Shown here piece after piece: positions 23,707 to 30,433 of a stretch of 64,000 nucleotides of DNA (position 1 is its first letter; every line of letters starts with the position of its first letter). This DNA is from Nitrospira sp. (lineage in GTDB: Bacteria > Nitrospirota > Nitrospiria > Nitrospirales > Nitrospiraceae). A program made the translations under genes and the position numbers. The stretch covers positions 310,001 through 374,000 of the forward strand of contig CP054184.1 in NCBI GenBank assembly GCA_015709715.1, read 5' to 3'. The notes under the pieces are model-generated. The model was not told where the DNA came from. It searched no databases and saw only the letters and a list, made by a program, of their open reading frames with translations.

Positions 23707-24014
23707 CGCTCGTTCTCGTTCGTAGCTCAGGATCGCACAATGGGCGACACCACCATGCCAACTAATCCCTTCCCCTCCCGCGTCCGTTCCCTCGCCCTGG
23801 TTTGCCGGAACGACCATTCCCCTTGTATTTGACCTTGTGCTCTTCGTAGTAGAGATAGGGTCTATCGGTCTCCAACTCCAGGCTCACGTAGTTGCTCTGA
23901 TCAAGCGCCAAGGACGAAGGCAACGTCATGCCCACCTGCCAACTTCCGCCTGAGATGGCTCCGCTTCTTTGGACAGAATCTTTCAGTTCCTAAGTGGTGC
24001 CGGGCGGTGTACGC

Positions 24015-24845
24015 CTACGCGGCCGTAGGCCGTGCAGGCACGCTCTCCCAGTACACGCGATCGGGCGTGCGTCCGTCAAGCGCGCGATGCGGCCTGAGCT
24101 GATTATAGAAGGTCAGATACCGTACCATCCCGTCCTGGGCGTCTCGGACGGTCTCGTACGCGTGCAGATAGACCTCTTCGTATTTGAGGCTCCGCCACAG
24201 CCGTTCGACAAACACATTGTCCCGCCACCGTCCCGTCCCATCCATACTGATCTGGATACCCTGGTCTTTGAGAAACCCGGTGAATTCCTGGCTGGTGAAC
24301 TGGCAGCCTTGATCCGTGTTGAAGATCTCGGGTGTGCCATACCGGGTGACTGCCTCCCGTACCGCCTCCACGCAGAAGTCTGTGGTCAACGTGTTGGACA
24401 GCCGCCACGCCAACACCCGGCGACTGGCCCAATCGAGAATCGCGCATAAATACACGAAGCCACGCCGCATCGGAATGTACGTGATATCAGACGCCCACAC
24501 ATGATTCGGCCGCGTGATCGTCAGCTGACGCAGCAGATAGGGATAAATCCGATGGGCAGGATGCCGCTGGCTGGTCCTCGGCTTCCGATAGATCGCCGCG
24601 ATGCCCATCCGTCGCATCAGCGTCGCGACCTGTCGTCTCCCAATGGCATGGCCCTCCTGCCGTAACAAATCCCGCAGCATGCGAGCGCCAGCAAACGGAT
24701 ACTGCAGATGGAGCTCGTCGATCCGGCGCATGAGTGCCAGCGTCGCGGCGGAGACAGGCTTCGATTGGTAGTACGCGGTCGACCGGGCCAGCTGCAGCAC
24801 CTGGCATTGTCGCCCGATCGGTAATGGATGGGTGCGATCACTCAT
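24015..24845 (-). CDS. IS3-family transposase OrfB (DDE integrase domain)
   Basis: 276 aa. N-terminal HTH_21-like region (FAGARMLRDLLRQEGHAIGR) followed by the rve integrase core: first Asp in VWASDITYIPM, second Asp in IFNTDQGCQFTS, Glu in VFVERLWRSLKYEEVYL, with the family's conserved WRDN before it and FYNQLRPHRALDG after it. All catalytic residues are present and no frameshift is seen, so the element may be active. The ATG overlaps the orfA stop by 4 bp (ATGA at 24842-24845), which suggests coupled translation; no A-rich slippery heptamer is visible at this junction. Confidence 0.95.
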   Translation of the reverse strand: MSDRTHPLPIGRQCQVLQLARSTAYYQSKPVSAATLALMRRIDELHLQYPFAGARMLRDLLRQEGHAIGRRQVATLMRRMGIAAIYRKPRTSQRHPAHRIYPYLLRQLTITRPNHVWASDITYIPMRRGFVYLCAILDWASRRVLAWRLSNTLTTDFCVEAVREAVTRYGTPEIFNTDQGCQFTSQEFTGFLKDQGIQISMDGTGRWRDNVFVERLWRSLKYEEVYLHAYETVRDAQDGMVRYLTFYNQLRPHRALDGRTPDRVYWESVPARPTAA

Positions 24846-25141
24846 CGCTTTGCGCTCAGCAAGCCCGCCTTGGTGAGCGCGCCTTCTAAAAAATCATTCT
24901 CGAGGGTCAGTTGCCCGATCTTGGCATGCAGGGTCTTGAGATCCGGCGCCTCCGACGGCGGTTTTGAGCCGCCAAACACATCCGCCGCCCGAGCCAGCAG
25001 CTGTTGCTTCCATTCGGTGATCTGGGTGGGATGGACCCTGAACTGCTCGGCCAACTCGGCCACCGTCTTGTCACCTTTGACTGCGGCCAAGGCCACCTGG
25101 GCCTTAAAGGTCGCTCCGTGGTTCCGTCTCGTCCTCTTCAT
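24842..25141 (-). CDS. IS3-family transposase OrfA (HTH)
   Basis: 99 aa DNA-binding subunit starting MKRTRRNHGATFKAQVALAA. The HTH_Tnp_1 motif is clear (TVAELAEQFRVHPTQITEWK), followed by a leucine-rich coiled coil (LKTLHAKIGQLTLENDFLEG) used for multimerisation. An in-frame extension to 25198 runs into the left IS end and is not likely used; GAGGT precedes the ATG at 25141. OrfA binds the terminal repeats and, as a fusion or complex with OrfB, directs transposition. Confidence 0.93.
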   Translation of the reverse strand: MKRTRRNHGATFKAQVALAAVKGDKTVAELAEQFRVHPTQITEWKQQLLARAADVFGGSKPPSEAPDLKTLHAKIGQLTLENDFLEGALTKAGLLSAKR

Positions 25142-25499
25142 TACCTCGCTCCTTTGTGTCGCCACCTCGCGGTGGCTTTGCTGAAGCCAGGCTACCACTG
25201 ATCACACTGTCCGAATTTCCGGAGCCCCCTCTGCCATTCATGTAAAAATAGCTGCCGGTGCTGACATTCACATACACGCCACTCGCCGGATAATACTGAT
25301 ACCGGTAGCGTACCTCCTTCGCTCGCCGCCCATGAGCTGGCGCCCAAGACGGAGGGCCGCCTTTCGGAGTCGCCACAATCACCGGTTCCGGGGCAGGATT
25401 TCCGACTGATACGCCCACACCAACCCGTGGATTCCTTCCGTCCATGGTACAGCCCGTCAGCAACAGCGCTCCCATGCCGATCAGCAGCAGCTTCTTCAT

Positions 25500-26371: not shown

Positions 26372-26814
26372 ATGAACGACGACTACGAACAGCAGTATTT
26401 TTCGACCTATCAAGCGTTCGCTAAAACGGTCAGCTTCATCTTAGAGAAGGCGTTGATAGCTGCCGAACATCTTCCTCGTCCTCAGTCAATCCAGTACCGC
26501 GCTAAAGGGATGGAAAGCTTGCGGCGCCGCTTGGCCGAATCGGACAAATTAGACACACAGACGCTGGAGCATGACCGGCGGGATCTCGCTGGCGCCCGAC
26601 TCATCTTCTACACCAATAACCACGTTAATCGTTTCCTTAATTCGCCACTGATCCACGAAAATTTCGAGATCGAGCCGAACTCGACTAAGATCCATCACCC
26701 CACCCCGGAGAACCAAGAAGCGCGATATCGCGCAGTTCACTATACGGTTCGGCTTCGTGAGGATCGCCTACACCTTCCAGAATATGCGAGGTTCGCTTGA
26801 CCTTCCCCCGTTTA

Positions 26815-27668
26815 TTACACCACGGCCAAGGTTGTTGAGTCCTGTGCCCGATAGGCCCCGGCTTGATGGTTACGAATGAACTCCTGGGGTGTCACATCTC
26901 CGATCGCACTATGGGTCCGTTCTTCGTTGTATTCTCACCGCCACGCTTCAATCACGAGCTGGGCTTCCTGCAGGGTCAGAAACCAATGCTCGTTGAGACA
27001 TTCATCGCGAAACTTGCCGTTGAAGCTCTCGACAAAGGCGTTTTGCACCTCCCGGGTGAATAAAGCGGAGCTGCACGCCGTGCTGTGCCGCCCAGGCATC
27101 CAGCGCGGTCCCTGCGAATTCGGGGCCGTTATCCAGGGCGTTTCGGGCAGCGGGCGAGTCAGAAACAGCCGATCGAAAATCCGACACACCCGTGCCCCAC
27201 CGATCGACACATCGACCTCAATCACGGGGACCTCTTTGGAGCAGAGATCGGTCATCGTCAAACACTTGTACCGCCGGCCCGTCACCAACCGGTCATGCAC
27301 AAAATCCAAGGCGTAACAGCGCCCTGGCTGCGTGGGCCGCGGGAGCGCGACGCGGGGGACGGCCGTGAGCTTCTTCCGCCGGCGTCGCCGTAACGACAGC
27401 CCTTCGTCGCGATAATAGATCCGTTCCACTTTCTTATGGTTCACGCGCCAGCCCTCCCGCCGTAAGCGCACGTAGATCCGGGGACAGCCATACCGCCGTT
27501 TATGCTCGGCAATCTCCCGGACCCGGGTTCGCAACGCCTCATCCTCATGGCGTCGATGGCGATACCGGAGCGTCTGGCGATCGAGGGCTAGGAGCCGGCA
27601 CACCCGTCGCTGACTGAGCCCAAAGCGCTCGGTGCTCCACTGAGCTGCCGCTCGCTTCGCCTTGGGCC
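26815..27668 (-). pseudogene. IS407-type transposase OrfB, inactivated
   Basis: In the -1 frame after orfA the product reads KLVGPKAKRAAAQWSTERFG, then VCRLLALDRQTLRYR and the integrase core with first Asp in YALDFVHDRL. Around 27145 the frame is lost: LDNGPEFAGTALDAWAAQHG with the second Asp lies in a different frame, and the original frame returns before VQNAFVESFNGKFRDECLN (third acidic residue). A TGA at 26935-26937 then replaces an Arg-type codon, after which EYNEERTHSAIGDVTPQEFI continues in frame to TAA at 26815. Two compensating indels and one nonsense change make it non-functional. Confidence 0.88.
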
Positions 27669-27935
27669 CTACCAGTTTTTTGCGGTGATCGCTTTCAACG
27701 CTTGGATGTCCAGCGCTTGGTCCGCCACCATCTGTTTGAGCCGCCGGTTTTCGTCTTCCAGTTGGCGGAGCCTCTGCACATCACTCACTTCGAGCCCGGC
27801 ATATTTCGCCCGCCACTTATAAAAGGTGGCATCCGAGATCCCGTGTTTGCGGCAGAGCTCTGGGACCCCAATGCCCGCCTGGGCGTCTTTGAGTACCGCA
27901 ATGATCTGTTCTTCCGTGTGCCGTTTCCGTGTCAT
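27669..27935 (-). CDS. IS407-type transposase OrfA (HTH), with -1 slippery site
   Basis: 88 aa, MTRKRHTEEQIIAVLKDAQA, with HTH GIGVPELCRKHGISDATFYK and leucine-zipper-like LRQLEDENRRLKQMVADQAL, typical of the IS407 subgroup. The end reads GCAAAAAACTGG (A6 at 27676-27681 on the complementary strand), where a -1 slip before the TAG would fuse OrfA to OrfB, the usual expression route for this subgroup. OrfA itself looks undamaged, but without a working OrfB the element cannot move by itself. Confidence 0.9.
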   Translation of the reverse strand: MTRKRHTEEQIIAVLKDAQAGIGVPELCRKHGISDATFYKWRAKYAGLEVSDVQRLRQLEDENRRLKQMVADQALDIQALKAITAKNW

Positions 27936-29822
27936 GGCCCCCTCCTGTAGGGCCCATCTCAACACAGGGCAACTTCCAAACCAATGGTCTAGTTTTCGGG
28001 GGGAAGGTCAGGATTACCTGATCCAGGCTGGTTATGAGTTTCAGAAAGTCCAGCAGGATCATGAACGGCTTCTCCAGGGCAAGGAACTCTTCGACAAGAA
28101 CATCGCTAACTTGCTGGATAATGCGCAGAACAACAACAGGCGTTACGAGATTCTGTCTGGACTGAAAGATTACGCTATTCCTAATTACGACGACCTGCCG
28201 GCTGCCTACGAGGGATTGAAAGGTCCTTTGTTGAAGGCAGTCGAAGCCGCACGCACCACGGATCCCGTTCCGATAGAAACATCCTACGGAAATATGGAGG
28301 GCTACAAAGCCGATGCGGTAACCAAGCTTGTCGTCGAGATCGTTGGGAGTCTACGCTACGCCGACATTGTTGGAACTCTGCAATTGCTTATCGATATCTA
28401 TCGGGGCGAGCTAAGTGAAGATATTCGCCAGCAAATTGTGAACGCCGTCAAGAAACTGGCCGAGTACAACATCGACGCCTACAATCGGGTAGGCCCTATA
28501 CTCCAGATGGCACTGGTGGATCACCTGGCCGGCATGAACGATGCGGAGTTGGACAATATTCGGCCCATCGCTCTTACAGTCTGGGCTGAAGTAGTTAAAT
28601 CAGATATTGCCGGCACGAATTGGAATGCAGACTCCGTAGTCTTGAGCAGGGGAGCTGTGCCCGTATCCGATCAGCTCATGGAGGTGCGCGACAAGGCGAT
28701 CAAAGCTCTTTTTGCAGCCTATGATCGATCGACCGACGATGCGCAGAAGCGCGCAGTTCTTTCAGCTCTGGACGCCGCTACACGGACCCCCAATCACGCG
28801 CACTACTCCAACCCACTTCAGGTCACTACGCTCAGGGATGCAACACGCATTGTCGACTTCGTGACAGAACGCATTAAGACTGCGAGTTACGAGATCCTGC
28901 AGCACTTAGAGCACCGATTCTTCTACGACTTTATGCGGGCGAAGGAGCTTACCGTCGACCCGGAAAATCGGTTCGGTTGTCAGGCTGAAGCAGAGGCGCT
29001 CGCTTGCGCCATCGTTAAGTTTCGCGACGCAATCAACGCTGATGAGCAGCTTGTTCGATACAAGGCTCTGGTAGGGTTTGAGTCTGTCTACCCCGGTCAC
29101 TGGACAGGCGAGAAGTTCGACTACAACGGGAGCGACGAATATCGGCGCAGGGAAACCGAGCGCTACATTGACGAGATCAATGCGGCGAACGAGAGCGATT
29201 GGTTCGACCTGCTTGCGCGTTGCGCGGAAACCAGGTCGAATGACCTTGCTACCTTCCCGGTTTTTGGAGAATTCATCCGCAAGTTGGGTGAGCGCAAGCC
29301 CGAAATAGCCAGCCGGTTCCTGACAGAGGCTTCGGACAACCTCCGCAACTTCCTTCCCAGCTTTCTCAACGGTCTGGCCCTGAGCGGCCGGTCCGATATC
29401 TATGACCGGATCTTAGAGACGGAGCTTGGGTCCCACCGGCGTGGTCACTGGCGAATGGGGCCTTGCGGAAGCCTATCGTGCAAGGAAGCAAGCACTGAAG
29501 GAATGGCTGACCGACGAACGGGAACCGGTCAAAGCGTTCGCGGAAGACGAAATCGCCCGGCTCGACCGCGTGATAGCGGCAGAACTGCGCCGTGCTGAGA
29601 CCCGAAAGGAAATGCGAATTAGGGATTATGACGATGACAACGGGAAGTCAGACGACGATCTGGGGAAGGAAGGCGAACCGGTAGTCCGATAATTTCCTGA
29701 GCCATCGCGGTCCCTAAATTCGGGAATGCTCCCTTCCCAGAAGCACCAAGATGCCGTGGCCCTGCCGCCGTGTCTTTCAGCTGGCCGAACGGAGCGGGAA
29801 GGCCGTCTGGCCACCCATCCCA

Positions 29823-30340
29823 ACCGTGCCGGTGAACAATGTTCGGACGGGGTTTTTGGAAGAAGATGAGTTCCGGCTCCTGCTCTAGCCTCTTCCTGAG
29901 GACCTCAAACCATCGTCATCTTCGCCTACCACACGGGCTGGCGCATCCGAAGCGAAGTCATACCCCTGACATGGCGGCAAGTGGACCTGCATTCTGGAAT
30001 CGTCCGCTTGGAACCCGGCACGACCAAGAACGATGAAGGTCGTCAGGTCCCGTTCGGGCACCTCGAAGAACTGGACCCAATAATGTGGCAGCAACGCCAA
30101 TAAAGGCCTGGAGAATCACCTGTAAGGCGGGCGGCAGGCATCGTGGGACGAATCCCGCATGAGTTCCGGCGCACCGCCGTGAGGAATCTGAAGCGGGCCG
30201 GAGTCTCCCGCTCAGCGGCGATGAAGCTCACCGGTCATAAAACGGAAAGCGTCTATCGCCGCTACGCTATCGTGTCCGAAGCCGATTTGTCAGAAGGAGT
30301 GCTCAAACTCGCGAGGTTTAGGAGGCGCGTAAGTTGTTGA
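29823..30340 (+). pseudogene. Tyrosine recombinase (phage-type integrase) remnant
   Basis: Fragments of one integrase catalytic domain in several frames: NNVRTGFLEEDEFRLLL then a TAG; after a shift IVIFAYHTGWRIRSEVIPLT (first catalytic Arg) through LEPGTTKNDEGRQVPF and a TAA near 30103; then GRIPHEFRRTAVRNLKRAG (HxxR) and MKLTGHKTESVYRRYAIVSE (second His and the Tyr). Part of the middle is deleted. The end lies directly against the 3' end of tRNA-Leu, the classical arrangement for an element integrated at a tRNA gene. Non-functional. Confidence 0.85.
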
Positions 30341-30341
30341 T

Positions 30342-30350
30342 ATTGGTGCC
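30342..30350 (+). repeat. tRNA-Leu side of the att-like direct repeat
   Basis: ATTGGTGCC spanning the CCA end of tRNA-Leu; matches 26297-26305. If real, this is the right attachment edge of the decayed element and the integrase remnant sits just inside it. Confidence 0.35.
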
Positions 30351-30433
30351 CGAGACCGGAATCGAACCGGTACGGGCCTTTTGGGCCCGAGGGATTTTAA
30401 GTCCCTTGCGTCTGCCAATTTCGCCACTCGGGC
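30344..30433 (-). tRNA. tRNA-Leu (anticodon TAA)
   Basis: Class II tRNA on the minus strand: acceptor GCCCGAG pairs with CTCGGGC; anticodon stem GGGAC-TTAAAAT-CCC region gives loop CTTAAAA, anticodon TAA (reads TTA); long variable arm CGGGCC...GGCCCG; T arm CCGGTTCGATTCCGG; discriminator A and encoded CCA at 30344-30346. 90 nt including CCA. Confidence 0.96.

Follow-up and report, generated by a model that had tools for sequence, protein, structure and literature searches.

The broken gene found in the window (the whole 64,000-nucleotide stretch of Nitrospira sp. DNA analyzed here) belongs to a protein family, RelA/SpoT-HEAT, that we consider likely (probability of roughly two in three) to be an uncharacterized one-protein abortive-infection alarm, in which a HEAT arm is the sensor and lock and a RelA/SpoT domain is the effector. 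We infer a sensor role and autoinhibition for the arm, and an anti-phage function and a product for the protein, as follows. The solenoid would hold the synthetase off until a trigger, probably a phage-made protein, is bound. The released enzyme would then make a growth-arresting product, namely, (p)ppGpp, (p)ppApp, or pyrophosphorylated tRNA, and the growth arrest would abort the infection. The domain composition, the catalytic residues conserved in intact members, the predicted fold, the patchy and mobile spread, the defense neighbors, and the solenoid homology of this family were established computationally.

In the window, three pieces of the gene remain, all on the plus strand. These are the N-terminal half of a RelA/SpoT synthetase domain (26372-26797), the first part of a HEAT-repeat arm (28011-29424), and the true C-terminal tail of the arm with its own stop codon in a different frame (29426-29692). 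Compared as protein with P0009, an intact Nitrospira relative with a 1,019-aa frame that served as the reference for mapping the breaks, they correspond to residues 6-147 (81% identity), 200-669 (75%), and 935-1018 (57%), respectively. The initial annotation had recognized a RelA/SpoT synthetase start from DLAGARLIFYTNN and YRAVH, both of which lie inside the open frame 26369/26372-26800. This proposal was borne out by a PDB profile search and by the predicted fold (AlphaFold2/Foldseek). The fragment retains the motifs R-x-K, DLAG-x-R, and YRAVH, and its residues 43-129 match the Pfam RelA_SpoT family (2.2e-5) at 25.2 bits, just below the family cut-off of 27.

Two losses separate these pieces. 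The IS-containing gap noticed initially does hold an insertion sequence, but approximately 52 catalytic codons present in P0009 are also missing at this junction. Likewise, the helical stretch of about 470 residues is present, but it does not reach the true C-terminus of the protein: the match to relatives ends at 29424, and the C-terminus continues in another frame beyond a second deletion of approximately 265 codons. Because the first loss removed the conserved E-x-Q...H-A-W...H...Y-K block, the enzyme encoded in the window cannot be active. The window copy is only a fossil, the inactivated remains of a single-gene protein that cannot work. As noted initially, its composition is less GC-rich than that of its neighbors (0.53 in the two gene-rich kilobases at 26-27 and 28-29 kb vs. 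approximately 0.57-0.63 around).

The element that interrupts the gene (26798-28010, minus strand) is a decayed insertion sequence of 1,213 bp with two transposase frames, from which it was assigned by eye to the IS3 family. Its ends are TGACCTTCCCC...GGGGAAGGTCA, and these boundaries were confirmed by close relatives with the same ends in other genomes of the genus. The orfB is broken by an in-frame TGA, and this is the single full copy in its own genome. No target-site duplication was found at the element (flanks GCT/GGA), as might be expected if it had joined two unrelated genes. The likelihood of such a joining is negligible, since in dozens of genomes a single intact open reading frame (ORF) spans both parts in the same order, and these intact relatives rule out a chance fusion. 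Another IS3-type element with two frames on the minus strand was found at 23946-25235. Four additional full-length copies in the same genome are 100% identical to it, and this neighbor of the decayed element is recently active.

Downstream of the gene, a tyrosine-recombinase gene remnant with several frame breaks (29826-30340, plus strand; family assigned from sequence motifs only) marks the edge of a mobile segment and adjoins a tRNA-Leu (taa) gene (30344-30433, minus strand), which is the probable integration site. No att repeats of this tRNA gene were found within the window. The flanking regions at approximately 21.8-22.8 and 30.4-32.3 kb are separated by about 7.6 kb here and by only about 0.9 kb in other genomes, e.g., G001 and G006. 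Based on this difference in spacing, which is inferred from coordinates, the segment of roughly 7 kb beside tRNA-Leu is a mobile insertion that looks to be absent from the congeners with compared flanks.

When the two parts were searched separately, as the initial annotation had proposed, the searches converged on one set of full-length proteins with about 1,000 aa. Each half alone matched the same genes on the Rhizobium rhizogenes plasmid pC6.5d and the Sphingobium plasmid pYGP1 (E-values of 6e-59 and 1e-14 for the N-terminal half; 0 and 3e-61 for the C-terminal half). These independent matches indicate that the pairing of RelA/SpoT and HEAT parts is not due to chance. The expectation that intact relatives exist also held: in a survey with one genome for each species, 66 loci were found, most of which consist of one ORF of 990-1,040 aa. 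They are spread over Nitrospirota, the alpha-, beta-, and gammaproteobacteria, and a small number of other phyla. Their identity to the Nitrospira protein ranges from 74% down to 24%. A first attempt at this genome scan with single-protein patterns gave no matches, and a six-row alignment of the arm was too divergent for a pattern search. In the open literature searched, no description of a protein combining RelA/SpoT and HEAT parts was found, which is a weak argument given that subscription papers were mostly outside the scope.

In the phylogenetic tree, the window piece is grouped with proteins from Nitrospira, Gallionella, Aphanothece, and Desulfomonile. This mixture of phyla fits horizontal transfer, although some of these are metagenome bins that may carry foreign contigs. 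Among sphingomonads, identical or near-identical RelA/SpoT-HEAT proteins were found in different genera (L111, L112, L131, and the Sphingobium plasmid pYGP1 locus L003), which indicates very recent transfer. Genes that are split or truncated were also observed (L083, L085, L107, L126, L130, L133, L135, and L138), several of them away from contig ends, such that decay is common among these genes, as in the window. In the Rhizobium member (L002:6653-10585), a poly-gamma-glutamate hydrolase domain (PF05908, 8.6e-45) is added at the C-terminus. Two close relatives of 1,287-1,290 aa (L079:9869-13732 and L086:9890-13762) have the same additional length and probably carry this domain as well. As for a viral origin of the gene, scans of viral contigs gave no matches, nor did a tblastn search in which the arm from Legionella was compared with annotated phages, and a viral fold library yielded one phage protein of the RelA/SpoT type whose match covers the enzyme part alone; thus, this possibility is unsupported.

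The intact relatives pass the Pfam gathering score for RelA/SpoT (PF04607) with 40.5, 40.6, and 46.5 bits. Among the 49 intact proteins aligned, residues R44, K46, D72, G75, R77, E148, Q150, T153, H157, H164, and Y168 are invariant, and the catalytic R-x-K, D-x-x-G-x-R, E-x-Q, and H-x-W block is kept in all of them, whereas the window copy fails in this respect. The Y-x-x-x-H motif is more variable, reading Y...H in proteins of the Nitrospira clade but F...N in those of a Sphingomonadales clade, and the latter change counts against the alarm reading. The AlphaFold2 model of an intact relative (mean pLDDT of 89 for the whole protein; pTM of 0.71) consists of a SAS synthetase followed by one long helical solenoid of about 780 residues that begins after residue 196. 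For the synthetase, Foldseek retrieved Bacillus subtilis SAS1 (TM of 0.73 of target) and RelP. For the arm, the matches were HEAT proteins, namely, CAND1, transportins, importin beta, PP2A-A, and SF3B1, and the helical-repeat tail proposed initially is accordingly a HEAT-type solenoid. The TM values over the whole arm are low, as expected of long flexible solenoids, so these matches show the type of repeat rather than a specific relative.

The domain order, with an N-terminal SAS-type enzyme and a C-terminal controlling part, is that of CapRel (PMC9712102). Taken together with the mobile location, the plasmid copies, and the frequent decay, it could indicate a toxin and antitoxin fused in one protein, as in CapRel (toxSAS). 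In this case, tRNA would be pyrophosphorylated by the RelA/SpoT domain, the HEAT arm would be a mere antitoxin, and the main role would be the stabilization of mobile elements. We consider this explanation unlikely. A PDB search with the RelA/SpoT-domain profile matched only GTP pyrophosphokinases of the RelP/RelQ type and no toxSAS structure at E-values up to 0.01. Moreover, the C-terminal part is a HEAT solenoid rather than a small antitoxin domain, and its homology to the arms of STAND NTPases points to sensing.

This homology is clearest for G1111, a STAND protein with EAD10 and AAA_16 domains that is encoded next to a caspase-family gene. Its arm is collinear with that of RelA/SpoT-HEAT over 697 columns (99.7%, E-value of 2.6e-27), and an Aulosira plasmid protein is a STAND protein of the same kind. 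As controls, an unrelated HEAT protein and a DSR2-like protein gave only 0.4 and 0.1%, respectively. The former value rules out generic HEAT similarity as the source of the strong match and argues for common descent of these arms. Partial matches in single comparisons were obtained for HTH-Mrr-nSTAND5 proteins (G488 and G1526) and an nSTAND3 protein (G652), with E-values of 3e-8 to 6e-5, and G275, which resembles PD-Lambda-4_A in PADLOC, matches the arm at 1.2e-5. These weaker STAND matches are suggestive of a shared arm. The same arm or a related one was observed in STAND NTPases at L178 (5193-8837 and 3879-5123), L073 (5400-9020), L179 (984-5066), L192 (5428-9438), and L181 (4645-8397); one of these proteins is encoded beside a caspase-family gene and two have HTH and Mrr-type domains.

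The arm also occurs as a stand-alone gene. In Legionella adelaidensis and Pseudanabaena, it is located directly downstream of a gene with a PIN_12 domain. In other cases, it follows a gene for a 230-residue REase-like protein (ECK motif identified by eye, without a Pfam hit; E-value of 3e-96 for the arm) or for a 268-residue protein near type I restriction genes (hsdM by Pfam). Two-gene sets of a small protein and a stand-alone arm were observed at L190:4267-7472 and L191:6092-9401, one with the REase-like motif and the other beside type I restriction genes. That the arm is common to STAND NTPases and to the partners of PIN- and REase-like genes is a more telling fact than the reading given in the initial annotation, and the occurrence of the same arm with other weapons in other systems makes a virus alarm likely. 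The module is not confined to defense, since its last 200 or so residues are fused behind a PilZ-like N-terminus (recognized by eye) in ordinary Nitrospira chromosomes (L029:7107-8198 and L031:7220-8269; about 24 genomes of a Nitrospira genus). These fusions have 50-64% identity to the Rhizobium RelA/SpoT-HEAT protein and represent an apparent reuse of part of the arm.

A broader hypothesis, which we hold tentatively and at somewhat less than even odds, is that one HEAT-solenoid family serves as a transferable sensor cassette across otherwise unrelated bacterial immune systems, whether fused to RelA/SpoT, fused to STAND NTPases with Mrr-type or EAD parts, or paired with a PIN- or REase-like protein from a neighboring gene. 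On this hypothesis, the phage components recognized by all of these systems would be related, and RelA/SpoT-HEAT would constitute a class of alarmone immunity not yet described. Should the arm be such a shared sensor, a single screen for triggers could account for several systems together, and setting the RelA/SpoT, nuclease, and STAND forms side by side would reveal how the same arm is coupled to different weapons. With the RelA/SpoT form, the few alarmone-type enzymes known in phage defense would also gain a large conserved family.

The initial annotation had asked whether homologs cluster with defense genes, and the gene neighborhoods support this. The 145 proteins encoded within approximately 2.5 kb of the gene gave matches to 130 PADLOC models at 1e-8, compared to 17 models for 128 proteins taken from ordinary Nitrospira loci, a rough and imperfect control in which only the direction of the difference is meaningful because models rather than proteins were counted (several per protein) and the genomes differ. 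The models matched by the neighbors include DSR2, PifA, AbiU, type III REase, GajB, and reverse transcriptases. On the Rhizobium plasmid, genes of the SIR2, metallophosphoesterase, and caspase families come after the RelA/SpoT-HEAT gene. Genes for error-prone DNA polymerases were also observed a few kb away at independent loci (UmuC-like at L084, L090, and L094; DnaE2/ImuB-like at L096, L100, and L111), which may reflect a shared mobile-element niche. No recurrent operon partner was found among the neighbors compared, and the gene seems to act alone.

This lack of a constant partner, together with the several metal-efflux genes among the neighbors, may also indicate that the protein is an alarmone synthetase of the host stress response, in which the arm senses a cellular condition and the defense neighbors reflect only shared mobile elements. 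The nearest solved enzymes are of the housekeeping RelP/RelQ type, and the PilZ-like fusions in Nitrospira are compatible with such a role. However, the gene has a patchy and apparently transferred distribution, with the arm in any form found in only 4 of the 385 alphaproteobacterial and 6 of the 369 gammaproteobacterial genomes (seed genomes counted in), and many loci are decayed. The sharing of the arm with STAND-Mrr proteins and with the STAND protein beside a caspase-family gene also argues against it. For these reasons, we regard a stress-response role as improbable, slightly more so than the toxin-antitoxin explanation, and favor the abortive-infection alarm.

Among known systems, the free-standing synthetases RelP and RelQ (6fgk and 5dec) share the fold and the catalytic motifs of the N-terminal domain, but they have only about 210 residues, lack the HEAT arm, and differ from RelA/SpoT-HEAT in the E-x-Q-x-(R/Q)-T motif, where the latter has Q instead of R. 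For the PADLOC candidate PDC-S33 (349 positions), the match is confined to the enzyme (5.7e-11). For OloA of Olokun (596 positions), the matches are weak and partial, covering part of the arm only (1.4e-4 in the window; 3.1e-7 and 1.5e-7 in relatives). The homology with the arms of STAND NTPases (NLR-like; nSTAND3, nSTAND5, and AAA_16) is clear for EAD10-AAA_16 and partial for HTH-Mrr-nSTAND5 and nSTAND3. Unlike these proteins, RelA/SpoT-HEAT has its effector fused straight to the arm without an NTPase domain, and no P-loop NTPase family was found by Pfam in the intact members.

The synthetase of CapRel is held inactive by the C-terminal part of the protein and is released on binding of a phage protein (PMC9712102). 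Similar to CapRel-SJ46 and other toxSAS (PMC9712102; PMC11559606), RelA/SpoT-HEAT combines an N-terminal RelA/SpoT-type synthetase and a C-terminal controlling part in one protein, is found on mobile elements, and has abortive infection as the proposed outcome. However, its C-terminal part is a far longer HEAT solenoid, and in the PDB profile search its enzyme is nearer to RelP/RelQ than to toxSAS. DSR2 is a nucleotide-acting enzyme with a HEAT arm that binds the phage tail tube protein (PMC11263360), and RelA/SpoT-HEAT resembles it in the size of about 1,000 aa, the N-terminal nucleotide-acting enzyme, and the long HEAT-containing arm. The effector of DSR2 is a SIR2 NADase and not a synthetase; the intact relatives have no Pfam match to SIR2, and no sequence homology was found between the two arms (0.1% probability). 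By the tests made, RelA/SpoT-HEAT is a member of neither system, while by analogy its architecture matches the logic of both CapRel and DSR2.
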